DNA from: a virus
Length of the DNA stretch: 64,000 nt
Reading direction: 5' to 3' (one strand)
Virus record (IMG/VR): IMGVR_UViG_3300028840_004168
Span: 62,001-126,000 of that record
The notes beneath the pieces are model-generated. The model searched no databases. It saw only the letters and a list, made by a program, of their open reading frames with translations, and had not been told where the DNA came from. Position numbers and translations under genes: made by a program. This document shows positions 3,614 through 29,779 of the stretch, one piece after another (position 1 is the stretch's first letter; the number at the start of each line of letters is the position of its first letter).

Positions 3614-5464
3614 TTACTCAGAACCGCTATCTTCTTCGCCATCAACCAGAGGAACATTCAACTTTTTCAAACGTTTCCTGATGCTCTCTTCGTCCATCTC
3701 AAGAGCTTTCTCCTGGTCGCTGAACTGCTGCGCTTCTTCGTCATCAATGCCAATGAACACACCAGCAGGCATGCTGTCAACGATTGTCTGGAAGATCTCT
3801 TTCAAGGAAACTTCTTTGCCTTCCTTGTCTTTGATCATCAGTGTATCGTTCTCCATCGTAATGTAGGCCTCAATGGTCTTTACGATGGCTGGCGGCACGC
3901 CCCTGGCTGATATACCCTGCAGGAACAGTTCTTTCTCAGATTTGAACCGTTCTTTCTGAACGATATCAAGCTGTGCATCTGCCTTTTTCTGTCCTTCTTT
4001 AAGCTGTTTGTTTTCTTTCATAATCACCTGAACCAATTCGCCCAATTCCTTTTTCTCATCGCTCAGCTTAGTGTTGGTATCTTCCATCGCTTTCAGCTTT
4101 GCTTCAAATGATTCTTCCAGCTTTTTGAGGTCATCTTTGGTGGCTGCAGGTTTTTGGGCTTTTTTCGTGCCTTTGTCTTTCATGTCATCTGCCTCCAATT
4201 TTTTCTTATCATCATCGGCATCCACGTCTCCGCTGTCGTCATCGCTGTCGTCAGCGTCAACGTCACCGTCATCCTGGTTGCCATCGTCATCTAAGTTCTT
4301 TGTTGAGTCGTCATCCTGGTTGTTGTCGTCCTGGTTGTTGTCATCCTGGTTGTTGTCGTCCTGGTTAGTGCCGTCATCATCATCGGCTGATTCTTTTATT
4401 TCATTAAACCTAAATGAATCAATTTCAAAGTCATCTCCACTTTTGAGATCGTCAATTATATCTTCACTTAAAGCTACAGGCTGAAGATTCGGAACGAATG
4501 GACGATTGGTGAAGCCACCACTAATTAAAGTAGGCCCATGCTCTTTATCCGCTTCTTTGTCCTTGTAGTTTTCAGTGTATTCGGCGCTGAAGTATCTATA
4601 CTTCTTGCCTTTGATAGCCTTGACACCGTCCTCAGTGGGATGGATTACAGCGCAAAGAATGCTTACGCCATCACGCTCACGCAAAAGCAGCTTGTCTACC
4701 CAGGCCGAAGCGCCTATATCTGGATTGTGGGTAAAGTCAAAACTGATCTCACGCCCCAATACCTCATTGTCGAAATTTCTGACCATGTTTTCAAGCTTCT
4801 CTTTGGTAATCTCTAACTTACCATATACAGGATGCTTGAAAGTCCCTGTGCGCAGAATCTCAATGGTCATCGGCTTTGATGTTAGCGCAACAGGCTTGTC
4901 TCCTTCCGACAATTTGACAAACGTTAAGTATTTACCAACATGTTTCATTTTGTATAGTACCTCCAGATTTTCTAATTTTTTCTTGCATTGCCGATTGTAA
5001 ATGTTTTGTGCTTTCGTTAATACGCCAGGATACTTGCTTGAAAGATCCGAGCCTGTTCTTGCACCCTTAACTGCACGTATAGCCGTTACTACCGCTGTAC
5101 AATTAATTGAGCCATCACTGTTTTTGTAGGGAAACTTTTTGATCTTGCCTTTTCCTGTTTCTGAACTTTTAACATAAAGGAAATGTGAATCTGGAACGTC
5201 TTTGCGAGCTGTAGGGGCTGTCCACTTTTCAGCCATCTCTAAATCCTCAAACTCAAGATGCTCAGCCACATATTCCTCTACATCTCTTACAAGGTGAAAC
5301 TCTGCCTCAAATTCTTTTTCGTCAAGGCTATTCTCTTTTGCCGCCTCTTTTACCGTCTTACCATGCCTGTGGTAATAAGAGATAGCGCAGACTTCAGCAG
5401 CTTCTTCAGGAAGCTTGCCTTGTTCTATCAAGTTAGCCTTGCACTTTAAATATTCTTTTGGCAT
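3614..5464 (-). CDS. Prohead protease (Mu I-like) fused to scaffold
   Basis: 616 residues. Start chosen at 5464 because GGAGG lies 8 bases upstream; an in-frame ATG 13 codons earlier has none. Residues ~1-190 are an unrecognised Cys-containing domain. Residues ~215-350 match Mu protein I protease: I-L-R-T-G-T-F...Y-G, F-D-F-T-H-N-P as the conserved D-x-x-H region, G-A-S-A-W-V-D, then Y-R-Y-F-S-A-E-Y and L-I-S-G-G-F-T-N-R-P-F-V-P. Residues ~375-440 are a highly acidic repeat (N-Q-D-D-N). The rest is a Lys/Glu coiled coil typical of a scaffold. Protease and scaffold on one chain are expected to assemble and then mature the prohead. First gene of the head operon. Confidence 0.88.
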   Translation of the reverse strand: MPKEYLKCKANLIEQGKLPEEAAEVCAISYYHRHGKTVKEAAKENSLDEKEFEAEFHLVRDVEEYVAEHLEFEDLEMAEKWTAPTARKDVPDSHFLYVKSSETGKGKIKKFPYKNSDGSINCTAVVTAIRAVKGARTGSDLSSKYPGVLTKAQNIYNRQCKKKLENLEVLYKMKHVGKYLTFVKLSEGDKPVALTSKPMTIEILRTGTFKHPVYGKLEITKEKLENMVRNFDNEVLGREISFDFTHNPDIGASAWVDKLLLRERDGVSILCAVIHPTEDGVKAIKGKKYRYFSAEYTENYKDKEADKEHGPTLISGGFTNRPFVPNLQPVALSEDIIDDLKSGDDFEIDSFRFNEIKESADDDDGTNQDDNNQDDNNQDDNNQDDDSTKNLDDDGNQDDGDVDADDSDDDSGDVDADDDKKKLEADDMKDKGTKKAQKPAATKDDLKKLEESFEAKLKAMEDTNTKLSDEKKELGELVQVIMKENKQLKEGQKKADAQLDIVQKERFKSEKELFLQGISARGVPPAIVKTIEAYITMENDTLMIKDKEGKEVSLKEIFQTIVDSMPAGVFIGIDDEEAQQFSDQEKALEMDEESIRKRLKKLNVPLVDGEEDSGSE

Positions 5465-5502
5465 GACTGAAAACCTCCAACAATGTAACGTGCTTAATGA
5501 CA

Positions 5503-5530
5503 ATTATAAATTAAAATATACATTAAGCAA
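5503..5530 (-). promoter_or_regulatory. Promoter of the head-gene operon
   Basis: Minus-strand TTGCTT and TATAAT separated by 16 bp, ending ~35 bases before the protease/scaffold start. A GAATTTCAT stretch just upstream resembles half of the palindrome found at other promoters here. Confidence 0.6.
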
Positions 5531-5559
5531 GAAAAAAATTATGAAATTCAATATTTTTT

Positions 5560-6150
5560 TTACCCTTTAACCTCCATCCCATTTAGCCAATCGTTTATAG
5601 TTTTGGCAACTACCATTAAAAGCTTGTTATAATTGTCATCGTATGAAAATAGTTTATATTCTTCATAATTGCTCAAGAAGAACAACTCTATCAATACGGC
5701 AGGTTTTTCAATGACGTTTAGAAGATAAAGGTTGTTGCGCTTAACTATCCCTCTGTATTTAAAATCAGGGAAGTAAAGCTCGAAGTTGAATGAGAACAAA
5801 TTACAGAAGCCCAAAGAGTTCTCATTCTTATATAATATCTCTGTTCCATTAACGTTTACATCATGAAATGAATTAAGATGTATCTCTATAAATATTTCAA
5901 AATCATCCATGTGCTCAACAGATTCAGCCTTCATAAATAACGAGCTATTGCTGCCTATCAGCTTGCTTGGGTCATTCATATCCATCAAAATAATTTCAGT
6001 ATCTGGAAGTATTAAGTCTCTTTCTATCATCATATAACGCAGGTCGTGAATAAACCTGCTGGCATAGTCATGCTCATGAACATCTGCTACAGCGCTATAT
6101 GCGCCTTTAAACTTGATGTCGTGCCCTGCGCTGATAATTACTTTTCTCAT
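5560..6150 (-). CDS. N-acetylmuramoyl-L-alanine amidase (endolysin)
   Basis: 196 residues, an Amidase_3-fold zinc enzyme that cuts the amide bond between muramic acid and the peptide stem. Visible signature residues: His10 in I-S-A-G-H-D, Glu26 in V-H-E-H-D, His91 in E-I-H-L-N-S, and catalytic Glu155 in V-L-I-E, followed by F-L-S-N as in the family. There is no signal peptide and no separate cell-wall-binding domain, so it is a compact catalytic lysin that would need a holin. It overlaps the upstream gene by 1 bp and ends the late operon, with the head operon promoter right behind it. Confidence 0.87.
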   Translation of the reverse strand: MRKVIISAGHDIKFKGAYSAVADVHEHDYASRFIHDLRYMMIERDLILPDTEIILMDMNDPSKLIGSNSSLFMKAESVEHMDDFEIFIEIHLNSFHDVNVNGTEILYKNENSLGFCNLFSFNFELYFPDFKYRGIVKRNNLYLLNVIEKPAVLIELFFLSNYEEYKLFSYDDNYNKLLMVVAKTINDWLNGMEVKG

Positions 6151-6671
6151 TATCTTGCTCCTGCAACTATATCAAGCTCCATGTCTGACGGCATAAACTT
6201 GACAAATAACCTTGCATATAAAGCGCCTCCTGCCATTATTTCCTGTGCAGGAGACATGAACTTCCCTGCTGCTGTTCGCCTGTAATAACCAGCGCTAAAG
6301 CTGATATCCCTGTGAGTGCTTAAAATGGAAGTCGCATCGTTAGCGTAATACAGGACAGGAACTATAGTAGCTGCACCATTGCTGTGAGAAAACTCAACTC
6401 CTACATGCAGCATCGTCTTATCGCCTATATATATAAAAGGATGTGTAAGAAGGTTGTCATAATCAGACAGATCTTGCTCTGTATCCATCGCCGTTACGCC
6501 ACTACGATAATAAACTGCAGTGCTGTCCAGCTTAATGGATGCAGGAACAAAAAGCTGCATGATGTATTCAGTTGGAGATGCATCTTGCTTTGTGTTATCT
6601 ATAGAAGGAACTCCAGCTATCCTTGCTTGCACATCTAAAGGAGTGTCTACCTTTATACCTTTGACTGTCAT
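6150..6671 (-). CDS. Virion surface protein, paralogue of next gene
   Basis: 173 residues, beta-rich. It shares F-I-Y-I-G-D-K-T-M-L, a V-P-V-L-Y motif followed by S-I-L-S-T-H, and a similar ending with the protein at 6687-7331, so the two arose by duplication. Set between the large fibre-like gene and the amidase, it is probably a minor fibre, tail-tip or head-fibre subunit. No enzyme motif is visible. Confidence 0.7.
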   Translation of the reverse strand: MTVKGIKVDTPLDVQARIAGVPSIDNTKQDASPTEYIMQLFVPASIKLDSTAVYYRSGVTAMDTEQDLSDYDNLLTHPFIYIGDKTMLHVGVEFSHSNGAATIVPVLYYANDATSILSTHRDISFSAGYYRRTAAGKFMSPAQEIMAGGALYARLFVKFMPSDMELDIVAGAR

Positions 6672-6686
6672 GATCTAATGCCTCCG

Positions 6687-7331
6687 TCAAATAGCCCCCA
6701 GGTAAATAATACCTGTGTCTAAGTTGGTTATATATCCAGGTTTAGAGCCGCCATCGTCATTTCTTTGGTCTACATATCTGCAAAGCATTTTAACATCTGT
6801 AGCGGCTCCAATAATACGTGTATATATCCTGCTGATATAGAAATCATTATTACGCTTCCATATTCTATTTCCAAAATTTCCAGCTATAGATCCTCCACCT
6901 ATGCTCATATCCATATTTATAGGAGAAACAGTAGACAAGAGCACATCAGAATTGCCGCCATAAAGCACAGGAGTAAAGGTAAACTTATCTTTGCGATGCT
7001 CTATATCATCCATGCTGATGAACTTACAAGCAAACGCAAAGACTAAAATATTCTTATCTCCTACATAAAATTTAGGCCTGGAGCTATAACTTTCAATATC
7101 ATCACTTCTGTCATTAGGAAACGTATTGGTATTATCATACAGATAAGGAGACAATATAAAATCAGAAGTAAGAGTAGGAAGCACCACCCTGAGAGTTTCT
7201 ATATAACTATCTGAAGGCACTGCAGGATCAAGAAGCGCCTCTACAGAATCAGTCCCAGCAATAGTAGCGTAGGTAGGGATGTCCCCATAGGCAAATTTTC
7301 TAAATGTCGATATGCCTACTTTGTCTGTCAT
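6687..7331 (-). CDS. Virion surface protein, paralogue of previous gene
   Basis: 214 residues, beta-rich. F-Y-V-G-D-K-N-I-L, T-P-V-L-Y and V-L-L-S-T align with the same blocks of the 6150-6671 protein. It overlaps the giant upstream gene by 4 bp (ATGA type), so the two are translated together. Likely a structural partner of the fibre protein; function inferred from position. Confidence 0.7.
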   Translation of the reverse strand: MTDKVGISTFRKFAYGDIPTYATIAGTDSVEALLDPAVPSDSYIETLRVVLPTLTSDFILSPYLYDNTNTFPNDRSDDIESYSSRPKFYVGDKNILVFAFACKFISMDDIEHRKDKFTFTPVLYGGNSDVLLSTVSPINMDMSIGGGSIAGNFGNRIWKRNNDFYISRIYTRIIGAATDVKMLCRYVDQRNDDGGSKPGYITNLDTGIIYLGAI

Positions 7332-10300
7332 AGACCTACTCCTAGCCCATCCATCTGCTCTACTGTAGGCTTGATGTTGTTAAACTTCTCCAAATACGGC
7401 CTGAACACATCATACCTGGAATAAGCTTGTGACTCATTAGTAAACTGGTTTTCAATATTAAGGTATGCCAAGCCGCCCATGAAGCATCTGTTATTGTTGG
7501 CAGGATCGCTAATGGGATCATTGTATCCGTAATGACCGCCAAAGCTCATAGTCGTATTAGCCCAGTTAGACGGAAGCTCAAAGTTTTTGCTTTCGCCTCC
7601 AGGCCACCACCACACTATATCGTAACCTATGGATGTTATCGTTGCTGGAAGGACTACTGCCATTACAGTGCTCCACCATTCCTGCTCAGGAATAATCCAC
7701 TTCCCATTCACATACATCGAAGGAACTCCTTTGCAGAACCGAGCATCCCAATTGGGAGCCCTGGAGCTAAAAGCAAACATTATATGATGCCAGAGATTAG
7801 ATTCAAAAGATTTAGTAGCGCCTAGAAATACTTTATACCTGTCAGCCATACGCCTGTAAAATGCTATCGCACCACGAGAAGCCATTATGCCCCAGCATGA
7901 ATTCAATGGATCTTCGCTATCTGCAACCTCAACAAGCCTTGCGCCTTTCTCCCAATTATCTGCTATAGTGTTTATATTCACAATCATCTCTATCGTAACA
8001 TTTCCATCTATAGCCCTGTAAACGTCATATGTATAAGGCTTTTCAGCAAAAGAAAACATAGAACGGTTATCGCTCGTGCCGCATGACAGATCGCCTCCTA
8101 CACTATCGCTGTCTCTTTTGCACATTTCTAAATTATCACTTCTATCCCAATTATCTCCGCTTTCTATGTCATAGTAATAATTTCCAGGCGATATCTCTCC
8201 ATACTGCGTGGGCAGCCATTCTACGCAAGGGCCGATAGGAGACTGACCAAACCTGTGTTTTGCAGCATCAGTCTCTTCATTCATGCGAGCTTTGTATCCA
8301 AAGTAATAAGACATATTAGGATAGAGGGCGATCAAGTTAGCAAACTTATTTACCAGCGGAACGAACTGCGCCATGCTAGGTGGATAATTATTATTTAACA
8401 TTGGCAGGTAATAATTATGATCTCTGTTTCTCATTATTTGATCATCTGGCGTAGAAGCATAATCGTCTACTATTTCAACCACCCTGTCATCTATCCCAAA
8501 CATATGGAAAGAAAAATGATGCAATGCTACATTCGCTTTGCTTGTGTATTCTACAGTCGGGCCGCCTGAAAACAAGGTTAGCCCAGGCCATCTCCAGTAA
8601 TCTATCTCAGGAGAAAAATAAAACGGCCCTGTTCCCCAATAGAATATGAAATTCTCATTGCTTTCTCTAAAGAATAATTTGCCATTGACATATACTTCTA
8701 TAGTCCTGGTATCGCTTTTATAATTAAGCGTTATATCCAGCAATGGAAAGTCCACATCTTTGCTGTGCGAAGCTGTCTTGACATTGTATATGCGCCCTAG
8801 CTCAAGAGAATATACAATACTATCGCCAAGCTCAGTGCTGGAATATCTGAACTTCAGATCTACTGCATTATCATCTCCTGGAACATCAGCTATGCCAAAG
8901 CTCCACGATCCTTCACCTGCTATAAAAACAGAATTGGAAACTAAATATCCGAATGTAGGATCAGGAGCTGCAAGCGCACCTGCTTCATTAGGGATTATAT
9001 TGCCAAGAACTTTGACAACGACATTCAATGAAAAATCTGACAAAGCAGGATCTTTAGTTAATTTATATTCTCCTGTATGATGAAGAGACAGCAATGAATC
9101 ACCATAAGAGCCATAAGGACTTGCTGCAAAGTTTCTTGCAATAGTGCCATACACAGTGTTAAACATATTTGTCTTTTGAGGATCATATTGATCAAAATCT
9201 TCCCATTCAAATCTCGGTATATCGTCAAGCTCAAGAAGAGAATCTATGCCAGACTGATAATTTTTATTAGAAAGATTTGTAATTCGGTCTACAGCTGTAA
9301 TAGTCCCACTATATTCCCTTTCCATCTGCTTGTTCACCTCTCCCATAGGAAGATCGAACAGGCAACTGTCTCCTGTAAATGTCATCTTAGGATACATGTG
9401 CCGTCTTTGGACTGTATGATAATAATTTTTATTATGAGCTCCATTAGCCTTCATAGCAACATACCTGATCTCTTCTTCGTTTAAAGGCCAGGGAGTGAAT
9501 CTTAATTCGCTCATCCATCCATGCAGGTTTTCTATCATCAGCCTTTGAACTGGAGCCTGTGCATAATCATCATACCTATAAAAAATTTGAGGATTAGGTA
9601 TATTATGACCACCAGCAAGCAATACTTCATATGCGTTATACTCAGCCACTTTCTGACCATTCATATAAAACTTTGCATCCTGACCATCCCATATCATAGC
9701 AAGATATATTCCGATATCCCTTGAAGACGCAGAATAAGGCTCCTGGTAGGCAGGGAGCCATTGGTTAATCTCTCTACCAGTATCTGCTATAGGATCATAA
9801 AAAGAAATCGTTGCCATTATTGCAGTTCGCACATAATCTTCAGACACATAATCTTTTCTAACCTGGAACCGCCAGGGTTTAGGAACGCCTGCATATATAT
9901 CTCTGGAAACAAGATGATTAAATACTGAGCCCCCTCCTGACTCTGCTGGCTTATCCTCATTACGATCAAACGACACTATAAACTCTATAGTAAATTGCTG
10001 TCTGTCAAAATACCTCTCTGTCTCCTGAAGAGCATTATCTCTTAAATCTATAACAGCCCTTCCCATGCCTCCATCAGTATGCATATACGCTGCCCATGAT
10101 GATATATCAGCATTTCTGAGACTGCTGCCTATAACTCCGATTTCATTCTGTATGCTGAATTTATAATCATGAGTATAGTCTTTGACAAAGTTAGAGCCGC
10201 CATTAGACATGCTGCCGCCAAAATTAAAATGGACATCTCCATAAGATTGCAAAGCAAACAATTGATCTATAGTCACAGTGCTTGGCATGTCCACTACAAG

Positions 10301-11164
10301 AAGAGCCTGAGTGTCAGAAACTATCTGAACGTTTAATATCCTTCCCTCTACAAGTTCGTTATTATCAGTATCATATCCAAACAAGCTAATGCCTTTGTTT
10401 ATAACAAAGACCTGCACGTCTGTTATCTTCCATTCAGCATCTACTCCATTATTTGTTATTTCAAGCACAGGATAGTAATCTTCATTATAAGGAATAATAT
10501 CTTGGAAAAAATATTCTTCGTAGTAAACCCAGTCAGGAGAAGGAGATTCAGGAGCTATAACTGTATTAAACATATCGCCAAGCTCATCCCATCCTACTGA
10601 ATCATCTACTCCATACATGCGCACCAGGACTTCACCATCTATAACTTTTATCCAATACCTAAGCATATAATAATTTCTATAAGTGAAAGATATCCAATCA
10701 CTCCACATGCCTCTCTTTTCACCTGGCACTACGTCTGGAACATCTACGTTAAAATAGCCGCCACAAGTAATTCCAGGGGGGAGATCAGTTGTGATCTGAT
10801 TACTTGTGTCTGTAGTTATGTCCATATTATAGTCTTCATATTCATCAGGCAAGAATACATCAGTGCTAGTAGCATCCAGCTGCCACCAGGGGTAACAAAA
10901 CTGAGGATCTTCAAACGTCCAGCCGTATGTGCCAGTAGTAGCCTGAAACTCGGCCTGCATCCACTCTACATCGCTTGTAGAATCTATATTGATAGGTATA
11001 TACTGGATATTGCTGTTTGCCAATGCAAAGGAGTCGCCAACTATATCCAGCTTGATAAAATCCATCTTAGGCTTGAGCAACGTATTCCTAAATGGTGGAT
11101 TAAACTGCCGCCAGGGATTATCATGGCTATGAAACATAAATCTTTTAAATTCAAAAGAATTCAT
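7328..11164 (-). CDS. Giant LamG-like virion protein (fibre candidate)
   Basis: 1278 residues, the largest protein here. It contains at least three concanavalin/LamG-like modules: each has a F-T-I-E-x-I-V or V-T-I-E-M-I-V strand, then a W-H-x-I-M or I-Y-L-A-M-I-W strand, then Y-V-N-G-K or Y-M-N-G-Q, then L-R-F-T-P or L-A-Y-L closing strands, near residues ~385-580, ~710-900 and ~1080-1250. Such modules bind sugars and are common in phage fibres and tail spikes. The N-terminal ~340 residues also look beta-sandwich-like. It probably recognises host surface glycans. No depolymerase residues are evident, and no chaperone domain is seen at the end. Confidence 0.75.
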   Translation of the reverse strand: MNSFEFKRFMFHSHDNPWRQFNPPFRNTLLKPKMDFIKLDIVGDSFALANSNIQYIPINIDSTSDVEWMQAEFQATTGTYGWTFEDPQFCYPWWQLDATSTDVFLPDEYEDYNMDITTDTSNQITTDLPPGITCGGYFNVDVPDVVPGEKRGMWSDWISFTYRNYYMLRYWIKVIDGEVLVRMYGVDDSVGWDELGDMFNTVIAPESPSPDWVYYEEYFFQDIIPYNEDYYPVLEITNNGVDAEWKITDVQVFVINKGISLFGYDTDNNELVEGRILNVQIVSDTQALLVVDMPSTVTIDQLFALQSYGDVHFNFGGSMSNGGSNFVKDYTHDYKFSIQNEIGVIGSSLRNADISSWAAYMHTDGGMGRAVIDLRDNALQETERYFDRQQFTIEFIVSFDRNEDKPAESGGGSVFNHLVSRDIYAGVPKPWRFQVRKDYVSEDYVRTAIMATISFYDPIADTGREINQWLPAYQEPYSASSRDIGIYLAMIWDGQDAKFYMNGQKVAEYNAYEVLLAGGHNIPNPQIFYRYDDYAQAPVQRLMIENLHGWMSELRFTPWPLNEEEIRYVAMKANGAHNKNYYHTVQRRHMYPKMTFTGDSCLFDLPMGEVNKQMEREYSGTITAVDRITNLSNKNYQSGIDSLLELDDIPRFEWEDFDQYDPQKTNMFNTVYGTIARNFAASPYGSYGDSLLSLHHTGEYKLTKDPALSDFSLNVVVKVLGNIIPNEAGALAAPDPTFGYLVSNSVFIAGEGSWSFGIADVPGDDNAVDLKFRYSSTELGDSIVYSLELGRIYNVKTASHSKDVDFPLLDITLNYKSDTRTIEVYVNGKLFFRESNENFIFYWGTGPFYFSPEIDYWRWPGLTLFSGGPTVEYTSKANVALHHFSFHMFGIDDRVVEIVDDYASTPDDQIMRNRDHNYYLPMLNNNYPPSMAQFVPLVNKFANLIALYPNMSYYFGYKARMNEETDAAKHRFGQSPIGPCVEWLPTQYGEISPGNYYYDIESGDNWDRSDNLEMCKRDSDSVGGDLSCGTSDNRSMFSFAEKPYTYDVYRAIDGNVTIEMIVNINTIADNWEKGARLVEVADSEDPLNSCWGIMASRGAIAFYRRMADRYKVFLGATKSFESNLWHHIMFAFSSRAPNWDARFCKGVPSMYVNGKWIIPEQEWWSTVMAVVLPATITSIGYDIVWWWPGGESKNFELPSNWANTTMSFGGHYGYNDPISDPANNNRCFMGGLAYLNIENQFTNESQAYSRYDVFRPYLEKFNNIKPTVEQMDGLGVGL

Positions 11165-11673
11165 CAGCTAACTTTCCTATCGACATTGCGCTTCTTCAGC
11201 GTCTTGGCTATATCACGCAACAGCTCGTTGCTTTCTTCCATCATCCTTGCAAGCCTCTCAGTTTTTTGCGCTGTTATATCTATCTCTCTTTTGTTCTCTA
11301 AGGCAAATTGAATCATAGCTTTCAGCTCTACAGGATCAAAAGGCTTATTAATAAACCTATATACCTCTCCGTTGTTTATAGCCCTGACAGCCTCATCATA
11401 TCCTGCCTTTCCAGTAAGCATAAATCTTATTGTCTCTGGATAGGCATCTTTCACTATCTTAAAAAATTCAACTCCATCCATCTGAGGCATAGAATAATCA
11501 GCTATGATCAGATCTATAGCATTATTCTCAAGCAATTTTAATCCTTCTACGGCATTTATTGCAGTATAGACTTCATATGATTCATACTCTAATAAATGTT
11601 GCAGAACTCTTAAAACAGCTTTGTCATCATCGATTACAAGAATAGATAACTTTCTGTTTTGCACTACTTCCAT
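11164..11673 (-). CDS. Stand-alone response regulator receiver (CheY-like)
   Basis: 169 residues. Residues 9-125 form a full receiver domain with every key residue in place: acidic pocket Asp15/Asp16, phosphorylation site Asp59 in I-I-A-D-Y-S-M-P, Thr87 in M-L-T-G, and Lys110 in I-N-K-P-F-D. The remaining ~45 residues are a charged helix, with no HTH, GGDEF or HD-GYP output domain. The protein could accept phosphate from a host histidine kinase and act by binding a partner. It sits inside the virion/lysis operon, 1 bp overlapping the fibre gene, which is very unusual for a phage. Confidence 0.9.
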   Translation of the reverse strand: MEVVQNRKLSILVIDDDKAVLRVLQHLLEYESYEVYTAINAVEGLKLLENNAIDLIIADYSMPQMDGVEFFKIVKDAYPETIRFMLTGKAGYDEAVRAINNGEVYRFINKPFDPVELKAMIQFALENKREIDITAQKTERLARMMEESNELLRDIAKTLKKRNVDRKVS

Positions 11674-11682
11674 TTTATTCTC

Positions 11683-12129
11683 CTAATCTGATTTCCTTAG
11701 TTCCTGAGCTATTATTTTTAAATAAGTAGTAGCTTGGCTTTGCATCTTAATAAGCTCTTCTACCTGTCTCAGCCATGATCTCGGCATAAACCACTTAGGG
11801 CTGCCGTCTTCGTCATATTTGTCATGCATGTCAAACATAACATCAGTCTTGCGTTTACACTCTGCAGTATCTGCGCACAAAGACTCCATCTTTTTGTTAA
11901 GACCATTCATAATAACAGTCAACGCTTTAATAGTTTCAGTCATATTATTTACATTAGAATTCATCTGTCCTGTAGCCTCAACTACTATTTTTAAATCTCC
12001 GTTCTTTGGCGCTTCTGGCTCTTTTTTAAGATAAGCCCAAACTATATCTCCCAAAATCTTCATGGATACGCCAATAAGCCCTGCGCCAATCAGGTGCAGC
12101 ACTCCAAAACTTGAAACATCAGCCGCCAT
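11683..12129 (-). CDS. Membrane-anchored coiled-coil protein, possible holin
   Basis: 148 residues. Residues ~8-30 form one hydrophobic helix (H-L-I-G-A-G-L-I-G-V-S-M), followed by K-K-E-P-E and a long amphipathic helical region. The pattern (one N-terminal membrane helix, long soluble helix) occurs in some phage holins or spanin-like proteins. It lies next to a cell-wall hydrolase and in the same operon as the amidase, which supports a lysis role, but no holin family is clearly recognised. Confidence 0.6.
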   Translation of the reverse strand: MAADVSSFGVLHLIGAGLIGVSMKILGDIVWAYLKKEPEAPKNGDLKIVVEATGQMNSNVNNMTETIKALTVIMNGLNKKMESLCADTAECKRKTDVMFDMHDKYDEDGSPKWFMPRSWLRQVEELIKMQSQATTYLKIIAQELRKSD

Positions 12130-12138
12130 AACAATCTC

Positions 12139-12747
12139 CTAAGCCACTGTGTCTATCATAATTTCAAATGTATCATCTATTTTAGCACGCCGATAGATAT
12201 CATTCGGAGACACAAGATTAAAGTCATTATCTTTTTCATATTGAGAAAGATCGAAACGCTTATCTACTTTGGCTAACGCCCTTGCGATAACCTCAGAACA
12301 CAGAACACGATAGTTAGAGGCAAATACATTCTTAATAGTTATGCCAAACCATTTCAATATGTAATAGAGCCCGAAACCTATAAGGCCGCCATAGTCATAT
12401 CCATGACCTATATACCCAGTAAGGCTTTTAATAAATTTTTCAACCTGCCTTTCATTTTTAAAGTCTGGACGTATAAGACAGCACTGATGATCGCTGTCAA
12501 TGTATTTAAATATCGCATCTTCAATCACTCCGTCTGCGCTGGCTTCAATAATATAAATAGGATCTTTAGCTGCTACAGTGTGCGAGAACGGCCCATCGTC
12601 AAACCATCCTATAAGCTCAGACACAGGATTGCCAGATATAACCAGCATTATGTCGCCACGTTTAATGTTTCTTAAAATATATTTTACATCGTCATCTGTC
12701 ATATCGTATGCTGCCTGTATGTGTTTAAAATGCCCCATGCCTTCCAT
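12139..12747 (-). CDS. Permuted NlpC/P60 (YiiX-like) cysteine hydrolase
   Basis: 202 residues. Circularly permuted papain-fold pattern: R-G-D-I-M-L near 30-35, His56 in F-S-H-T, Glu68 in I-I-E-A, then a G-x-x-Y-D-Y segment and Cys150 in L-C-S-E, the expected catalytic trio for the YiiX/YaeF group. These enzymes cut amide bonds in peptides, lipids or cell-wall peptides. In the late operon it could help degrade peptidoglycan during entry or lysis. Two in-frame starts are possible (residues 1 and 4). Its first codons overlap the end of the upstream gene by 49 bp. Confidence 0.78.
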   Translation of the reverse strand: MEGMGHFKHIQAAYDMTDDDVKYILRNIKRGDIMLVISGNPVSELIGWFDDGPFSHTVAAKDPIYIIEASADGVIEDAIFKYIDSDHQCCLIRPDFKNERQVEKFIKSLTGYIGHGYDYGGLIGFGLYYILKWFGITIKNVFASNYRVLCSEVIARALAKVDKRFDLSQYEKDNDFNLVSPNDIYRRAKIDDTFEIMIDTVA

Positions 12748-13595
12748 GCTGTCTGAGATACATTCGAAGCTATTATCCTCATAAAATATCCTGGTGGAAG
12801 CATCTCTGCATCATCAGAATCAAGGTAGTTATAAGTATAGCTTGTTCCATAGACAAGTATCTCATTGGCAAATTCAAACACCGTATGTTCGATATCATAA
12901 AGATCATAACCGCCAGTAGCATCTGCACAGAAAGAAAGCTGGTTGTTTACCAAGTTCCAGTAGCCAGTGCTGGTGAAATTAGGCACAGGATAAGTAGCTG
13001 CGGTAAACACTTTAGAGCCAGGAATACTGTAAACTATGCGATGATCTCCTAGCACAGATAAGAAGCCAGCAGTAGAATCAGCAAGAACGCTGGGTTGCGC
13101 TATCACATGAAAACTGATACTATCTCCCCATCCTGCATCTTCAAAAGCAAAATAACCATCACGTATATATATGTATGGATCTATGAAGTGGATGTCTCTT
13201 ACCAGCTCAGATGTGGTAGCGTCCAGTGCCAGCATAAACTTATCGCCTTCGCCACGCTTCATCTCAACATGATCATCGCCTGCGCTGCTGAAATAGGTAT
13301 AATAGCCAATAGGCCTGCGTGTAGCCAGCGCCATAAGCTTTTTATCAGCAGTCTTAGAGAACTTCTGCTGGTAATTTCTTATCCAGTCTATACCATCACC
13401 AATTGAAAGATCGCTTGTGCCGTCATTGACTGTGAATGTTTGATTGCTTATAAGCACCACCAGATCTTCAGAATTAGCCAAAGAAGCAGGGCTCTCAGTG
13501 CTGACATCCCTCTGCCCATTGGCAGGAACTACCATGCCGCCTAGATCATCAATAGACACATCTTTGTCTGTATTATTTTTTAATATCTTAGCCAT
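12699..13595 (-). CDS. Virion protein, tail/fibre-associated
   Basis: 298 residues, beta-rich, no membrane segment. The start (M-A-K-I-L-K-N-N-T-D-K-D-V) and the passage V-V-P-A-N-G-Q resemble the N-terminal ~100 residues of many phage virion proteins that begin 'L-x-N-x-T-x-x-x-V...G-x-x-V-P-A-x-G'. The protein at 13604-14452 has an analogous opening (I-T-N-L-T...V-L-L-P-A-G). The rest is unrecognised. It may be an attachment or fibre-base protein; function inferred. Confidence 0.65.
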   Translation of the reverse strand: MAKILKNNTDKDVSIDDLGGMVVPANGQRDVSTESPASLANSEDLVVLISNQTFTVNDGTSDLSIGDGIDWIRNYQQKFSKTADKKLMALATRRPIGYYTYFSSAGDDHVEMKRGEGDKFMLALDATTSELVRDIHFIDPYIYIRDGYFAFEDAGWGDSISFHVIAQPSVLADSTAGFLSVLGDHRIVYSIPGSKVFTAATYPVPNFTSTGYWNLVNNQLSFCADATGGYDLYDIEHTVFEFANEILVYGTSYTYNYLDSDDAEMLPPGYFMRIIASNVSQTAWKAWGILNTYRQHTI

Positions 13596-13603
13596 ATATC
13601 ACC

Positions 13604-14452
13604 TTATGGAGCCACATACCTTCTTTTGCACCAAAGCACCATATTAGTGCTCTTTACATTTCCTCCTGCAGCATCTACAAACACCTGCAGGTAATCGTCT
13701 GCATCCAGGTCTATATCAAAAGTAAGATCTTTAGCATAATAAGCAGCACAGGTAAGAGCGCCTAAGTTAGTAGCACTGTTATTTTTTCTTATATAAAACA
13801 CCTTAGTCGCAGTAGCGCTACCAGTGGAAACCCTGACTGAGCCGCCTACTATAGTCATATCATGAATGATTGGATAACCAACAGTAGGATGTGCTGTCAA
13901 CCCAGTAGAAGGCAATAGCTGATTTCCAGTAGGCTCATCCCTGCCAAGCGTAAGCGGTATCAGCCCAGGGGTCAGATACTTATCCCTGACAGGATCATAC
14001 ATGTAAAGCTCGCCGTCATCGTATACAAATTCATCTCCGCTTATAACATCCTGATATACCCACATATTAGAAGTGCTGTCATATATAAGAGCGTTTCCAT
14101 GAGAAGGCATGTCGGTAGTGATCACACGCCCACGAATAGCAGAAGCATCAGCTTGCAACTCTCCTGATGTTATCTCACGTTCAGATATAACTGTAAACAC
14201 ATTGTCATTTGAAAATATAAAAGGAACAGTCCCGTAATCATCATTTATGCTTATATTGCCCATCTTCCAGTTATAAAATAGATCGTTAGAACGAGAAAGC
14301 AAATCAAGCGTAAACTGGTCTGTTATTACCACAGTGCCATCAGGTTCCCCAGCAGGAAGAAGGACAAAGCCATGCACATCAGGAAAGTCAATAGGTAATG
14401 CCGTCAGATTGGTAATCGTCCTGGTTATTCTTTTAAAAGCTGTTAAAGCCAT
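13604..14452 (-). CDS. Virion protein, tail/fibre-associated
   Basis: 282 residues. The N-terminal ~60 residues follow the same plan as the neighbouring 12699-13595 protein (conserved T-N-L-T, P-A-G, then S-x-D-L-x-x-x-W/V). A middle D-G-E-L-Y-M-Y-D-P-V-R-D-K-Y-L-T and a beta-rich C-terminal domain (I-V-G-G-S-V-R-V, D-L-D-A-D-D-Y-L-Q-V-F) suggest a jelly-roll-like tip that could contact the host. No enzyme residues are visible. Confidence 0.65.
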   Translation of the reverse strand: MALTAFKRITRTITNLTALPIDFPDVHGFVLLPAGEPDGTVVITDQFTLDLLSRSNDLFYNWKMGNISINDDYGTVPFIFSNDNVFTVISEREITSGELQADASAIRGRVITTDMPSHGNALIYDSTSNMWVYQDVISGDEFVYDDGELYMYDPVRDKYLTPGLIPLTLGRDEPTGNQLLPSTGLTAHPTVGYPIIHDMTIVGGSVRVSTGSATATKVFYIRKNNSATNLGALTCAAYYAKDLTFDIDLDADDYLQVFVDAAGGNVKSTNMVLWCKRRYVAP

Positions 14453-14461
14453 GACACACCT

Positions 14462-14833
14462 TTATTCTACCCAATTATCCTCAAACCATTGGGTTAAAGT
14501 TGAATCCGCATCCTGAATCGGTATAAGTGAAAGCATTCCTTCACAACATACTGTCAGGCTTCTTATATCCATATCGGCATCACCTTGATCTATTTTCACA
14601 TTAGCCGAAGTGGTTGTATCGTAGTAATACCTGATCATCTGCGGAGCATTAGCTTCACTTTCAGTATCATCATATTTGTAGACACAAAGAATTGGCTTGG
14701 GATATTCGTCATAAGCTGAATTAAGATTATATGAAGCAGGAGCATAATACTTATAAACATCTGCTGTGAAGCCAATTCCAGCCATTAAGACAAATAAGAA
14801 AATCAAAGTTGATAAAAATATTTTCTGAAACAT
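14462..14833 (-). CDS. Small exported protein (Sec signal peptide)
   Basis: 123 residues. Residues 1-24 are a clear Sec signal peptide: K near the N-terminus, a hydrophobic core (L-S-T-L-I-F-L-F-V-L-M-A-G) and a likely cleavage site after F-T-A. The mature part is small, Tyr/Asp-rich and has three cysteines. It directly follows another signal-peptide gene in the late operon. An exported protein could modify the envelope of the infected cell or be a structural protein assembled outside; neither can be chosen here. Confidence 0.72.
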   Translation of the reverse strand: MFQKIFLSTLIFLFVLMAGIGFTADVYKYYAPASYNLNSAYDEYPKPILCVYKYDDTESEANAPQMIRYYYDTTTSANVKIDQGDADMDIRSLTVCCEGMLSLIPIQDADSTLTQWFEDNWVE

Positions 14834-14846
14834 TATTTCCTCCTTT

Positions 14847-16904
14847 TTAACTATCTTGCTCTATCCTATAAGTGTACATATTTAAATTAACTTGTCCTGA
14901 AGTGCCTTCATCAACGCTCAGTAATGGTTGCATAGCCACTGCAGGAATGTTTGTTGTAACAGACGCATACTGCGTGCCATCAACCGACCAATGGACACCA
15001 GTGCCATCAGCCCAAATTCTGAACACTGAAACAGTGCCAGCGGAAAAAGTATGACCAGTGGCTGAAGTAGTTGAAGTGCCGCCGCTACTGCATTTTAAAT
15101 ATATCGTTCCTGTGCCTGTATGTTCAATATAGATATAATCATCTGAACCACCTGCAGATGATTCAATCAATCCAACTTTAAATAACTGGTTACTGGTTCC
15201 CCCTGCACCTGCAACCGAGAATATAGCAGTCATATCAAAATCATTAGCATATGCAAAAAAACATATATCATTGAAATCAGCTTCTTCTAAAGCAGGGCTG
15301 CCAAATCCGCTTGTCCTCATTTGAGCAACGCCACTTGCCGTTGTAATCCGAGTTAGCCAAGTTCCACCATTAGTAGTCCTTCTATCCCAATAGCTAACAT
15401 TATCTGGAGAGGTCGGATATGTACCCCTCATAAAATCATCACGAAATAAAACTTCAGGGGGAGTCGAACTGCCACCACCAATGGGAGTTCCGTCAATTGC
15501 AAGCCCTGAAGAAAAATCCCAAGAATCTAAAGATTCATTCCACTTCATATATTCATCGTTTGTGGCCTTATCAACCTTCATTATGATAAAGTCTCTATCG
15601 CTTGGAGAAGATATGCCATCTCTCAATAAAATTATTTCCTGAGTTGCAGCAGTCCCTCGAAATTCTAAATCAAACATCGGCTGATCAGTATCCCACATCG
15701 AAAGAACCAGATTGGGCTTATTAGTGTTGATTCCGAAAGTAGCTATATGACTACGAATCCAGCCTTGAAAATAATTCTCTCCCTGTGTCGATAATGCAAA
15801 GGCATTTCCGCTTGCGTTTGTAGCACCAAAAGTACCACCGATGTTCGTGCCAACATGATTATCATTGGCTTGACCTATGACTCCAACTACATTAACTGTA
15901 CTAGAAGCAGAAACATATCTGCCAAGCCCATATACTCCAGCTGCCCCTCCCCAGCCACTGTTTGTAGAAGCAATTCCAACTACTCCAAAAGCTTGCTCAT
16001 TAGGAGACGTAACATGCTCAAACAATCCTCCAATCTTAGTCGCCCCTAATGCTGTTGCTGTATCTCCACCAGCACTCCAGAACTGATACCCTGTAGAAGT
16101 GGTAGTTCCCTGAGCTGCCAGCCCGAATAAGCCTGTATAAGCACCAAAAATTCCATATGCTGCAGGAGCGCCTATAGGAGCTGTTACAAATGTCGGCCCC
16201 ATTATACTCAAAACATTTGCAAACCCTGCTATTGACGAAACGCCAATCAATAAATCATTATCAGTGCCAATGCCAGTAGCTTCCCAGGCAAGTATTATGT
16301 TGCCTGTAGCAAGGGGAGTAGTGCCGCCGCCAAACACTAAAGCAGCTCCACTTGGATTAGGAGGCGAAAGGCCTAAATCTTTAAAGCTGGCAACAGGCGA
16401 ACCGCTTAATTCGAAATCAATCTGAGTAGAAGATTCAACATCATTTTTTAGAATGTTGCCTACATTAGTCCATAGGCCTCCAGCGCCGCCAGTGACATTT
16501 ACAGTAACTTTGCCGCCGCCTTCATCCGTCACAGTAAGGCCGCCTTCAAAGTTTACAGTATCGGCATCAGCTATCTTTGCATCATCTTTCTGAATTTCAA
16601 TAGTGCCTGCGCCTCCACCAGCATCACAGCGAAGCTTATCCCTGATGCCGTCAGCATCAGTATCTTCAGACAGGTAGTATAGCTGCTGAGCCAATGTGAG
16701 AGATCTGTCATTAGGACTTTGCGCCCCAGCCTGTGCTACATAAATAGTTCTTATCTTGTCTCTAATGCCGTCAGCGTTAGTATCTTCAGACAGATACCAC
16801 AACTGAGCATCGTCATCAAGAAACCTGTCAGCTATAACAGATGTGCCTATTAAAATGCAAAACAGGAGTATAGAGCCTGCCAAAAGTTTTTTATGAAATT
16901 TCAT
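14847..16904 (-). CDS. Large exported protein with calcium-type repeats
   Basis: 685 residues. Residues 1-25 are a Sec signal peptide (M-K-F-H-K-K, hydrophobic core, V-I-A). Two copies of L-S-E-D-T-[ND]-A-D-G-I-R-D-K (about 38-50 and 78-90) have the D-x-[DN]-x-D-G loop of dockerin/thrombospondin-3 calcium sites. A long Gly/Ala-rich middle resembles fibre shafts, and the C-terminal ~190 residues (D-D-F-M-R-G-T...G-L-I-E-S) look like a lectin-type beta-sandwich. It resembles a tail fibre or exported surface protein. A signal peptide on a phage fibre is odd. Confidence 0.72.
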   Translation of the reverse strand: MKFHKKLLAGSILLFCILIGTSVIADRFLDDDAQLWYLSEDTNADGIRDKIRTIYVAQAGAQSPNDRSLTLAQQLYYLSEDTDADGIRDKLRCDAGGGAGTIEIQKDDAKIADADTVNFEGGLTVTDEGGGKVTVNVTGGAGGLWTNVGNILKNDVESSTQIDFELSGSPVASFKDLGLSPPNPSGAALVFGGGTTPLATGNIILAWEATGIGTDNDLLIGVSSIAGFANVLSIMGPTFVTAPIGAPAAYGIFGAYTGLFGLAAQGTTTSTGYQFWSAGGDTATALGATKIGGLFEHVTSPNEQAFGVVGIASTNSGWGGAAGVYGLGRYVSASSTVNVVGVIGQANDNHVGTNIGGTFGATNASGNAFALSTQGENYFQGWIRSHIATFGINTNKPNLVLSMWDTDQPMFDLEFRGTAATQEIILLRDGISSPSDRDFIIMKVDKATNDEYMKWNESLDSWDFSSGLAIDGTPIGGGSSTPPEVLFRDDFMRGTYPTSPDNVSYWDRRTTNGGTWLTRITTASGVAQMRTSGFGSPALEEADFNDICFFAYANDFDMTAIFSVAGAGGTSNQLFKVGLIESSAGGSDDYIYIEHTGTGTIYLKCSSGGTSTTSATGHTFSAGTVSVFRIWADGTGVHWSVDGTQYASVTTNIPAVAMQPLLSVDEGTSGQVNLNMYTYRIEQDS

Positions 16905-16917
16905 TTTTTATTTCCCC

Positions 16918-18618
16918 CTATTTATTCTTTTCTATCGCTCTTGCTTTGGGAGCGCCTTTGTTTTTCATATTGTTTTGTCTTATTTTTCTTGCCTGATCAG
17001 CTTCATCTTTAGTAGCAGCTTCCTTGACCTTCTCTTTTTCAACATCTATCTCGCCATCTTTCTCAGTCACAGTTTCTTTTTCAGTCTCTATTTCTCCACT
17101 GCTGCCGATTGGAATTGCTTCATAGCTATTATCCAAACTATCAACAGGTATCTCAAGGAAATCTGCCATCTTCTCAATGCTAGGAACATTTTTAGGATAA
17201 AGACCAAGTTTGGCAAGTGCATCAACATTCTTAAGCGTCTGCATATAAATTTCTTTAAAGACAAGTTTTTTATTGAAATCCAGATTATCTATTTGAACCC
17301 TGACGGCTTTACGTTTCGCCACAGGCCAGTTATACTGAACAAGATCTTCGACAATGTTTTCTTCTATCCACGTCTCAAGTTCTTTGATCAGCTTCTCCTG
17401 CGACATCAGAAACATGTCTGCATGAACCGAAGCAACATTATAAGATCCAGAAGAAGAATCCTGCACGATTGTTTTTTCAGGAATTAACAAGCCACGCAGG
17501 ATCACGACTGACAGATGCACTATCGCATCTATAAACATATCGCCACGCCTCTGATCTTGTATTAAATCCACAGTCCACTTTGGATTGCCTTTCTCGCTTT
17601 CTTCAAAAGGCAATGTAACAGCAGAATTGTTTGCTATGTTTTGAACTATATCTTGCATCAAGGTAAGATTGTCATAATCTTCATTATTAATGCGAGTCTG
17701 CCCAGGAGGTGCAGTGCCCTTGATAGGCGGCGTTCCACGTCTTTCAAAATACTGAAGCATCCACAGATACATTAAGTTCTTCCAATACCAGTAAGCATAA
17801 ACACGGTTCAGCCTGGAAGCTCCAAAGTAATTGCCGAATTCAAATTCGTTTGTATACCACGCCGCTTTCGGCATCTTGATTGTGACCTTTTTGCCCTTGA
17901 CATTTTGGGTTATGCCTTTAAACCTCTGATGCCTGTTTAAAAGTATGGACACAGAAGTAGGATGCAGGCACTTGATGTATTTATATTTTATCAAGTCTCC
18001 TTTATAGTATGTAATAGGAGTGTCAGCAGCTTTATCATAACCAGTTATACGAGCGCCTTTTTCCATTGTAAATACTTTTTCAAAAGATGAAAACCCAAAG
18101 TCAATAGACAGGAGCGCATCGCTTATCAGCTGAGTCCACAGGGGCCTCAGTATCGATTGTATAGTGGCAGCTATACTTTTATCATCACATACAATACGCC
18201 AACTCGCAGCTATAATAGGATGTTTAATAATAGCCAGCCCTAGCGCTATCTGAGGATCTTTACGCATCTGCTCCAGAGTGCTGACAGGTATATCCATCTC
18301 TGGAGGAAGGCCTTCACCACTAATATAATAGCGCCCATAATCAAGCTTGCCGCCATACCTACCGTATTCCTTGTTCACAAGAGAAAGCCCCTTGAGACGA
18401 TCTGCGTTATATCTATTATTGATATTAGGCATTTGATCAGAAGTTTCTTTCAGGTAGGTAGTAAAGGCATCTCTGAGATCAGAGTGCATAAACTTACTAG
18501 CCAAGCTCTGTATCTCAGATCTTTCTTTGATGCTAACGTAATTTTCTACGTGTCCCTGTGCCTTTTTCATAGGGTAGTGCCCCCTTTGCATCTCTACCTG
18601 GAGATCTGCTGATGCCAT
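16918..18618 (-). CDS. Portal protein
   Basis: 566 residues, next to the large terminase with an 86 bp overlap. It shows the usual portal core: D-P-Q-I-A-L-G-L-A-I-I-K-H-P-I near 125-140, W-R-I-V, a long helix-rich middle (Y-W-Y-W-K-N-L-M-Y-L-W-M-L-Q-Y-F-E-R-R-G-T-P) and the block Q-D-Q-R-R-G-D-M-F-I-D-A-I. It resembles the Mu gp29/DUF935-type portals, consistent with the Mu-like protease. The last ~70 residues are a charged Glu/Lys tail. Forms the dodecameric DNA channel at the head vertex. Confidence 0.83.
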   Translation of the reverse strand: MASADLQVEMQRGHYPMKKAQGHVENYVSIKERSEIQSLASKFMHSDLRDAFTTYLKETSDQMPNINNRYNADRLKGLSLVNKEYGRYGGKLDYGRYYISGEGLPPEMDIPVSTLEQMRKDPQIALGLAIIKHPIIAASWRIVCDDKSIAATIQSILRPLWTQLISDALLSIDFGFSSFEKVFTMEKGARITGYDKAADTPITYYKGDLIKYKYIKCLHPTSVSILLNRHQRFKGITQNVKGKKVTIKMPKAAWYTNEFEFGNYFGASRLNRVYAYWYWKNLMYLWMLQYFERRGTPPIKGTAPPGQTRINNEDYDNLTLMQDIVQNIANNSAVTLPFEESEKGNPKWTVDLIQDQRRGDMFIDAIVHLSVVILRGLLIPEKTIVQDSSSGSYNVASVHADMFLMSQEKLIKELETWIEENIVEDLVQYNWPVAKRKAVRVQIDNLDFNKKLVFKEIYMQTLKNVDALAKLGLYPKNVPSIEKMADFLEIPVDSLDNSYEAIPIGSSGEIETEKETVTEKDGEIDVEKEKVKEAATKDEADQARKIRQNNMKNKGAPKARAIEKNK

Positions 18619-20431
18619 CGCTGTTTATTTCAATCAAACCTTTAAAGATAGAATTCATTTCATCAGCAAGCTTTGGAACTGAGCTTATATCGCTTAATCT
18701 GGAAGGCATCTTTTGAGCCAGCGGCGCAGATACACCTCTTGTTTGAGGCAAGTATTCTTTCCTTTGCGTCTTAACAACAGTAGGAGCAACAGCGTTCCAG
18801 TACTTAGGATCTTTCTGCGCTGGGGTTCCCATATAAGATGCCAATGCTAATGCAATAACTCTATCAGCATGATGGTATTTAAGCTCTCCAGGATCAACGT
18901 CATATCTGACGCTATTAAAATTAGTTATAATTCTTCTGATAGAAATAAGTTGTTTGACCAGTTCCATGTCTTCAGGGATAGCGATCATCTGCCCTTCAAA
19001 CCTGATCTTTAGGTTAGTGAACAACTGGTTCTTTAATACATTGGTAAAAGACAGCGTCTTGACACGGCTGCCAAACTCGTTCTGAAGCTGCTCTGCGAGC
19101 TGCATGCCGATGCCTGTTTCATCAATGCCTAACTTGATAATTGGAAATGTATTCATGTAATACTGAAGCTGCCTTCTCTGTTCTTCAAAAGGTATGTTCT
19201 TAAATGATCTTGCAAAAACAACTGTCTGAAGCATACCTTCTTCTTCTATTATTTTAAATTCAGCTGAATCTTTCCGTCTACCAACGTCATATCCAGCATA
19301 AAGATTTTTAGATATTTTACCCTTAGAAAGATGCTCAAGCAGAACATTTGCTTCGCCGCCACAATAGATAAACTTTTTGTGTTTATATTTTTGCTTGATC
19401 GGATAATCACGAATCTTGTAAGGAGCGCCAGTAAGGTCTTCCTGCCTGTAAGCAAACTTGCAATGGTTAATAACTTCAGGTGGGAAGAAAAAGCTGGCAT
19501 CGTCCAGGAACTTGCAGTTATATTCCTGTTCGAAAAAGTCTTCATCCATGTTCACAAAAATTTCCATAAGTATTTCTGTGCCAAAATGACCCACCACTTC
19601 ACGAATAGACATGCCTTCATCTATTGCTAGTCTGGCAACATGGATGTCATCTACCAGACGTGGACAATCATAAAAAGGAATATTTGTTATTTTAAATCTA
19701 AACTTGCTTGGATTTGTAGCAATGTTATAAAACTTGCCCCTGCTGCCCAGCGGCGTAGAACCGATAAACAAGCAGCCGCCGAAAGATATCATAGGGAGCG
19801 CTGCAACGTATATCTGGTCAGCCCAGGTATAATGGGCATATTCATCCAGGAACACGTCAGTCCTGCTTGTTCCTTTACCTCTTGGCTCTCTTTGTGGATG
19901 GCTAATCAGAGTTGTTCTTGTTTTATATTTTCCAGAAGTAGATTCAAACTCAAGGCGCTGGATGTTGTCAACGACCAGTTTCTTTTGCCATGCTGAAGGC
20001 AGGCTATCATAGCCCATCTTCGCATACAGTATTTTATTGTTAGCGTCATCTTGATTGTAGCTGACAAAGATAGCCTGATAATCATGGTATAAATGGGAAG
20101 ATGCAAGGCCACGCATTGAATAGGCATAACTGATGCCAACACGCCTTGACTTGTTTTGCAGGCTGAATACATTTACTTCATCGACAATCTCTCTGCCATA
20201 TTCATCCAGTACAAGCGGCTCTCCAGAAAGGCTTATCAATCCCTCATTCCATCCAGAAAGCGTTGTGAGCCAATTAGACATATCCTCTTCGCTAGGCTCT
20301 TTCTTGCTTACAACATAAGGTATTTGAGCTTTCTTATTGCTGTTAGCATAGACAGAGTCGAAGGGGTTATCTTTTAACCGAGGCTTTGGAGCCTTCTTGT
20401 TGCTGACTCTGATCTTCCGTTTATTCGGCAT
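18533..20431 (-). CDS. terL: Terminase large subunit
   Basis: 632 residues, the ATP-driven DNA-packaging motor and nuclease. Residues ~94-101 (K-S-R-R-V-G-I-S) are the relaxed Walker A of Mu-like terminases; T-D-V-F-L-D-E-Y-A-H (~190-200) is Walker B with catalytic Glu; F-I-G-S-T-P is the coupling motif. The C-terminal RNase H-like nuclease is visible as A-G-Y-D-V-G-R-R-K-D-S, G-I-D-E-T-G-I-G and H-A-D-R-V-I-A-L-A-L-A, giving the three acidic residues. Its 3' end overlaps the portal gene by 86 bp and its 5' end overlaps the upstream gene by 11 bp. Confidence 0.93.
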   Translation of the reverse strand: MPNKRKIRVSNKKAPKPRLKDNPFDSVYANSNKKAQIPYVVSKKEPSEEDMSNWLTTLSGWNEGLISLSGEPLVLDEYGREIVDEVNVFSLQNKSRRVGISYAYSMRGLASSHLYHDYQAIFVSYNQDDANNKILYAKMGYDSLPSAWQKKLVVDNIQRLEFESTSGKYKTRTTLISHPQREPRGKGTSRTDVFLDEYAHYTWADQIYVAALPMISFGGCLFIGSTPLGSRGKFYNIATNPSKFRFKITNIPFYDCPRLVDDIHVARLAIDEGMSIREVVGHFGTEILMEIFVNMDEDFFEQEYNCKFLDDASFFFPPEVINHCKFAYRQEDLTGAPYKIRDYPIKQKYKHKKFIYCGGEANVLLEHLSKGKISKNLYAGYDVGRRKDSAEFKIIEEEGMLQTVVFARSFKNIPFEEQRRQLQYYMNTFPIIKLGIDETGIGMQLAEQLQNEFGSRVKTLSFTNVLKNQLFTNLKIRFEGQMIAIPEDMELVKQLISIRRIITNFNSVRYDVDPGELKYHHADRVIALALASYMGTPAQKDPKYWNAVAPTVVKTQRKEYLPQTRGVSAPLAQKMPSRLSDISSVPKLADEMNSIFKGLIEINSDGISRSPGRDAKGALPYEKGTGTRRKLR

Positions 20432-28695: not shown

Positions 28696-28702
28696 ACAAA
28701 CT

Positions 28703-29227: not shown

Positions 29228-29230
29228 GCA

Positions 29231-29719: not shown

Positions 29720-29779
29720 GAGGTAAGATATACATGCTCCATCAGACAGATAGACAGACAGAAAAATAAGGAGAAAGAC

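Follow-up and report, generated by a model that had tools for sequence, protein, structure and literature searches.

The window, a stretch of 64,000 nucleotides, covers positions 62001–126000 of a 129,910-base IMG/VR virus record (IMGVR_UViG_3300028840_004168) of an uncultured phage; phage genes occur all along this record. On its minus strand lies an open reading frame for a stand-alone receiver protein. The sequence has an ATG start with an AGGAG-type ribosome site upstream; the plus strand across 11164–11673 is interrupted by several stop codons. The gene, its parts and its surroundings are listed in Table 1.

Table 1. Features of the receiver locus, with positions in the window and the data behind each assignment.
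Feature	Position	Strand	Basis
Stand-alone receiver protein, 169 aa	11164..11673 (stop codon included)	minus	ORF, PF00072, alignment, AlphaFold2
Receiver domain proper, residues 8–127: acidic pair D15/D16, phospho-acceptor D59, T87, F107, K110	11293..11652	minus	PF00072, invariant positions, fold
Helical arm, residues 128–169, continuous with the last receiver helix	11167..11292	minus	AlphaFold2, alignment
Terminase large subunit	18533..20431	minus	PHROG terminase matches, phage homologues
Portal protein	16918..18618	minus	Portal_Mu 1.4e-31
Block between portal and head protease, 11.4 kb, holding the receiver	5504..16917	minus	comparison with L090 and L106
Permuted papain-like amidase (YaeF/YiiX type)	12139..12747	minus	phrog_1128 1.2e-16; weak NCBIfam YaeF 3.5e-4
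148-aa protein, one hydrophobic N-terminal segment and coiled-coil-like body	11683..12129	minus	sequence, hydropathy
1278-aa concanavalin/LamG-like, fibre-type protein	7328..11164	minus	Laminin_G_3 1.3e-5, below gathering score
N-acetylmuramoyl-L-alanine amidase, endolysin-type	5560..6150	minus	Amidase_3 4.1e-18; phrog_435 endolysin 8.7e-21
Head maturation protease	3614..5503	minus	phrog_328 2.8e-6; homologues in kin phages
Major capsid protein	1847..3118	minus	Phage_cap_E 7.5e-23

The genes for terminase, portal protein, receiver, the 1278-residue LamG-like protein, the Amidase_3 protein, head protease and major capsid protein all lie on one strand, and the gaps between the late genes do not exceed 73 nt and are mostly shorter than 20 nt. 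With its fibre-type and endolysin-type neighbours, this arrangement bears out an earlier, sequence-only reading of this DNA, which had placed the gene in a virion operon beside genes for fibre and lysis. The receiver gene and the 1278-residue gene after it overlap at their stop and start codons (TGATG), and the Amidase_3 gene is located four genes downstream of the receiver. On the upstream side, the papain-like amidase probably starts at 12702, where an ATG overlaps the stop codon of the preceding gene; its candidate residues His56 and Cys150 are conserved, and its family, phrog_1128, is also that of gp28 of Alteromonas phage V22. The 148-residue protein encoded between amidase and receiver showed no family match below E 0.01 in Pfam and PHROG searches. 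Its hydropathy reaches a maximum of 1.79 at residues 8–26 (19-residue Kyte–Doolittle), and it may be regarded as a candidate membrane-anchored lysis-type protein.

Several other open reading frames have unusual features. Midway through the head protease frame lies an Asp/Asn-rich repeat (NQDDNNQDD). Two minus-strand genes of the fibre block, 14462–14833 and 14847–16904, encode strongly hydrophobic, Sec-signal-like N-termini with hydropathy maxima of 2.36 and 2.47, which is unusual for virion proteins. On the plus strand, the regions 27236–33033 and 51695–62541 hold at least 21 open reading frames of 108–271 residues, each with a CxxC pair, which have a common C-terminal motif, KKRxMFxFGxKK or KRxFNQxK. 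Four of them were scanned against Pfam and none gave a match; the sequences suggest a paralogous family that has expanded and bears a C-terminal tag. Outside the window, at record positions 32993–35236 (L003:12993–15236, minus strand), lies a glycosyltransferase family 9 (heptosyltransferase-like) frame (Glyco_transf_9, 3.3e-14) into which an intein has apparently been inserted (Intein_splicing, 8.9e-4, below cut-off).

Bacterial genomes abound in receiver genes, and the sequence-only reading had named two findings that would speak against a phage gene: a prophage–chromosome chimera with the gene in host DNA, or a homologue found only in the host. Neither applies. The record has phage genes on both sides of the receiver, and also encodes a 2846-residue tape measure protein on the receiver strand, a phage-type DNA polymerase III alpha and a DnaB-like helicase. 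Both flanks of the receiver consist of phage genes on the same strand, G+C content and skew are even across the 11.4-kb block, and the codon usage of the receiver gene matches that of the neighbouring phage genes. The tight gaps, even composition, matching codon usage and TGATG overlap make a host fragment or an assembly chimera very unlikely, and this explanation was rejected on record context, composition, codon usage and gene junctions. Stand-alone receivers occur in other phages too, as described below. It is near certain that the protein is a phage-encoded receiver.

PF00072 is the sole Pfam family in the protein (5.9e-25, residues 11–122). Alignment with eight bacterial relatives showed D15, D16, D59, T87 and K110 in the phage protein and no variation at these positions, confirming that the catalytic residues are intact as had been claimed. 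AlphaFold2 modelling based on a nine-sequence alignment gave a receiver fold (mean pLDDT 91) followed by a single helix (residues 114–168). The protein therefore combines the (beta-alpha)5 fold with the acidic pair, phospho-acceptor Asp, Thr/Ser and Lys of a receiver domain. The best PDB match of the model is 3hv2_B (Z 21.9, rmsd 1.4 over 125 residues, 36% identity; 81.6 bits by sequence), which is the receiver from an HD-domain protein of Pseudomonas fluorescens; several further receivers are at most one Z unit below. An output domain had been reported as lacking, which agrees with the single Pfam family and with the start of the fibre-type gene at the receiver stop codon. In the model, the last receiver helix is prolonged to 55 residues and looks as if the gene had stopped at the point where an output domain would begin.

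The label ‘CheY-like’, given in the sequence-only reading, is appropriate for the fold but not for the subfamily, as the nearest relatives are HD-GYP/NosR-type receivers. Chemotaxis CheY was rejected at the subfamily level: CheY chains scored 42–49 bits versus 81.6 for the receiver of the HD-domain protein, and CheY models are absent among the 25 best NCBIfam models. This grouping does not support the earlier emphasis on CheY and motility. The best NCBIfam model is NF053512 (NosR), which matches residues 11–162 with 149.7 bits, a score below the family cut-off of 400 bits; the next model reaches 72.5 bits. NosR is a response regulator with an HD-GYP-type output domain. In an independent collection, the best-ranked plasmid-borne matches are HD domain-containing phosphohydrolases aligned up to residues 162–168, and a tree built from 63 receivers places the phage protein inside a starred clade with the HD-GYP/NosR-type group. 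NF053512, the tree and the plasmid-borne matches all assign the receiver to this subfamily; with 169 residues, no C-terminal HD-GYP output domain and a score below the cut-off, the protein is not a member of the full-length family.

The bacterial homologues from a peptide-pattern scan are mostly multi-domain. The best bacterial matches are about 40% identical and, being spread over Pseudomonadota and Omnitrophota, do not single out one donor lineage. In the alignment, the helical arm of the phage protein corresponds to the linker preceding the HD-GYP output domain. The arm adds about 12 bits to the match with the profile of NosR-type proteins. As 7 of 300 shuffled tails equal or exceed this value, the resemblance to a pre-HD-GYP linker is suggestive only, and it is likely but unproven that the protein descends from an HD-GYP/NosR-type response regulator of which receiver and linker were kept and the output domain was cut off.

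To what extent the gene is typical of its phage lineage was judged from 50 viral records with a related terminase (16 + 34, searched as whole records, many of them fragments). None contained PF00072, and a conserved gene of this lineage was rejected, with many of the 50 records being fragmentary. In the nearest kin, L090 and L106 (portal proteins 37–39% identical), portal and protease genes are about 0.5–1.2 kb apart versus 11.4 kb here, and the receiver-bearing 11-kb block is missing. Together, the absence of carriers among the 50 records and of the block from the nearest kin identify the receiver as an accessory gene of the fibre/lysis block. Scans of IMG/VR revealed no close viral relatives of receiver, portal protein, 148-residue protein, terminase (single-sequence query) or amidase; as such scans depend on exact matches to short peptide patterns, absence from them is weak evidence. 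The tblastn matches in a phage collection were mostly to unannotated contigs or to records with ordinary bacterial genes and were not counted as precedents. Structure comparison with viral proteins did find other phage receivers, including a 149-residue protein of V22. The statement that receivers are very rare in phages is broadly right, but precedents exist (V22, A5 and others), and in V22 and A5 a CheY-like protein is encoded downstream of the tail fibre; stand-alone receivers in phages are already known, and that of the window is not the first.

The Alteromonas phages V22 and A5 are described as having in common a host recognition module which includes CheY-like proteins, with flanking genes of unknown function, and which has been exchanged between phage families (PMC10579305). 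In V22, the gene order is tail fibre, chaperone, permuted papain-like amidase, a 125-residue protein with hydrophobic N-terminus and coiled-coil-like body, receiver gp30 and a gene with an Rz-like spanin match. In A5, which belongs to another family, a coiled-coil protein is followed by receiver gp11, a homologue of the Rz-like protein of V22, a small membrane protein and the annotated endolysin. A viral scan returned V22 itself and two more IMG/VR contigs, L201 (64% identical to V22) and L202 (46%). Both encode a coiled-coil protein, receiver, Rz-like spanin, embedded lipoprotein-type frame and small membrane protein. The lipoprotein-type frames (L201:6744–7043, L202:6723–7055) overlap the Rz-like genes beside the receivers, which is the usual arrangement for outer-membrane spanins. 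L201 additionally has a papain-like amidase upstream; in L202, the small membrane protein is followed by the same gene that is annotated as endolysin in A5. The best E-values of the PHROG spanin matches for the flanking genes range from 3.4e-8 to 7.6e-5, and from these matches and from sequence features we read the genes flanking the Alteromonas-type receivers as probable lysis genes. New here is the observation that V22, A5, L201 and L202 all have their receiver gene flanked by a small coiled-coil gene on one side and an Rz-like spanin gene on the other. The position of the Alteromonas phage receivers supports a lysis link indirectly.

The window, V22 and L201 have amidase, coiled-coil protein and receiver in the same order, and by architecture and order the window receiver likewise follows a small, N-terminally hydrophobic coiled-coil gene in a fibre/lysis region. 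Directly downstream, no Rz-like spanin gene is present; the 1278-residue gene is found instead. Homology of the 148-residue protein to V22 gp29 or A5 gp10 was not detected (hhalign probability 0.3%), and the shared order therefore reflects in part similar architecture, not descent. The amidases of the window and L201 match only weakly in direct pairwise comparison (E 0.013) and are assigned to a common family because both match PHROG 1128. The N-terminal segments of the Alteromonas-type coiled-coil proteins have hydropathy values of 1.16–1.31, lower than that of the window protein; with such modest values, membrane anchoring is a guess for all these proteins. The best tree separates the window receiver from the Alteromonas-type receivers, but a tree that keeps both together is not rejected (p-AU 0.068). 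Other phages with the phrog_1128-type amidase family have no receiver. The recurring setting of amidase, coiled-coil protein and receiver, which was noticed after the fact and in two lineages, is a lead, not proof.

These comparisons also bear on whether the receiver matters for infection at all. A passenger gene, swapped along with the fibre/lysis module and of little or no effect, would fit its absence from all 50 terminase-related records, the absence of the whole block from kin phages and the mobility of the Alteromonas module. Against this stand the intact catalytic residues, ribosome site, codon usage and coupled start/stop, as well as the recurrence of receivers of a different subfamily at a similar position in other phages. 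We consider a mere passenger unlikely.

Whole-record searches found neither HisKA nor HATPase_c, while in 14 control genomes HisKA was detected in 12 and HATPase_c in all. A phage-encoded two-component system was rejected on this ground, and any phosphate must come from a host kinase or from acetyl phosphate; that the host feeds the receiver is inferred from this absence. The idea that the protein drains phosphate from host regulators or imitates them, put forward in the sequence-only reading, appears compatible with the receiver's anatomy.

The best explanation, which we hold tentatively, is a late, host-fed phospho-switch that acts by contact and ties lysis or the state of the envelope to host signalling. 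Late in infection, the receiver, probably derived from the receiver-plus-linker half of an HD-GYP/NosR-type regulator, would take phosphate from host kinases or acetyl phosphate. Phosphorylation would change dimerization of the receiver face, and the helical arm could engage either a host regulator or a coiled-coil partner, for which the protein from the adjacent 148-residue gene is the likeliest candidate. Action by contact is proposed because an enzymatic or DNA-binding output is missing from the protein. In this way, the final stage of infection (lysis, or the state of envelope or surface) would depend on the phosphorylation status of the host. The complete receiver with its intact active site, the long C-terminal helix, the HD-GYP/NosR-type ancestry, the absence of HisKA and HATPase_c from the record, the tightly packed late operon with coupled start and stop codons, in which the gene is flanked by those of the candidate membrane coiled-coil protein and the fibre-type protein, and the recurring setting in unrelated phages speak for such a switch. 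Points against it are the 148-residue protein, for which homology to V22 gp29 and A5 gp10 was not detected, the fibre-type gene, not a spanin, after the window receiver, the distance to the Amidase_3 gene, the different subfamilies of the phage receivers, the phages with the same amidase that have no receiver and the linker resemblance of the tail, which is no more than suggestive.

Close behind comes the possibility, somewhat less favoured, of a decoy in a host two-component pathway. A truncated HD-GYP/NosR-type receiver would take phosphate from a host kinase or heterodimerize with the full-length regulator; as a sink or dominant negative, it would interfere with the control of c-di-GMP, biofilm or surface without involving the lysis genes. 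The subfamily and the missing output domain would agree with such a role. In bacteria, the NosP/NosK/NosR system provides a precedent: its kinase phosphorylates the receiver, which has an influence on behaviour linked to c-di-GMP (PMC12570481). For V22 gp30, a role as class II auxiliary gene that enhances functions of the host has been proposed (PMC7289586). However, the late, virion-linked position is odd for host reprogramming, and the Alteromonas phage receivers are nearer to OmpR/PhoB types, which makes one common host target unlikely.

Returning to the contact-acting phospho-switch, its presence in a phage late module would, if true, connect host two-component signalling directly with the end of infection. 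That a few unrelated marine phages have a comparable protein in comparable surroundings suggests, without proving it, that phosphorylation signals of the host are read or disturbed by some phages at a late stage of infection. More speculative, and in our view improbable, is an independent recruitment by unrelated phages: bacterial receivers from different subfamilies would have entered one and the same late position, next to papain-like amidase and membrane coiled-coil protein, and would let the lysis machinery read the host phosphorylation state and adjust lysis timing. The lysis question can be tested in the cultivable phages V22 and A5, where the receiver genes adjoin Rz-like spanin genes.

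Among known systems, the HD-GYP regulators of NosR/RpfG type (NF053512; 3hv2) have the closest receiver sequences, including the YRFINKP region, and the window protein has a linker-like helix as well; they carry an HD-GYP output domain, whereas the window protein does not. Bacterial single-domain receivers of 168–175 residues (L009, L170, L183) resemble it in consisting of a receiver and a C-terminal helix without output domain. They end in a common motif (PGI/PGL-K-D-G-I type), which the phage protein lacks, and are encoded beside NosR-like or related genes in bacterial signalling clusters, in contrast to the phage operon of the window. Homologues of spo0A in phages (PMC10294663) are, like the window gene, phage copies of part of a response regulator, but comprise the output domain without the receiver and are the mirror image of the window protein. 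A divergent phage receiver, cREC, belongs to NAD/ADP-ribose systems (PMC7824862) and is linked to the processing enzymes of these systems; the window receiver has amidase, coiled-coil and fibre-type neighbours instead.

V22 gp30 and A5 gp11 are, as in the window, stand-alone receivers (147–149 residues) of tailed phages. Their genes belong to the fibre region and immediately follow one for a small coiled-coil protein with hydrophobic N-terminus, and in V22 the receiver is also located downstream of a papain-like amidase of the PHROG family found in the window. A5 gp11 and the window protein are 19% identical. The Alteromonas proteins are nearer to OmpR/PhoB/CtrA-type receivers and have a much shorter sequence past the receiver domain than the HD-GYP/NosR-type receiver of the window; their next downstream gene is the Rz-like spanin gene, whereas in the window it is that of the 1278-residue fibre-type protein.
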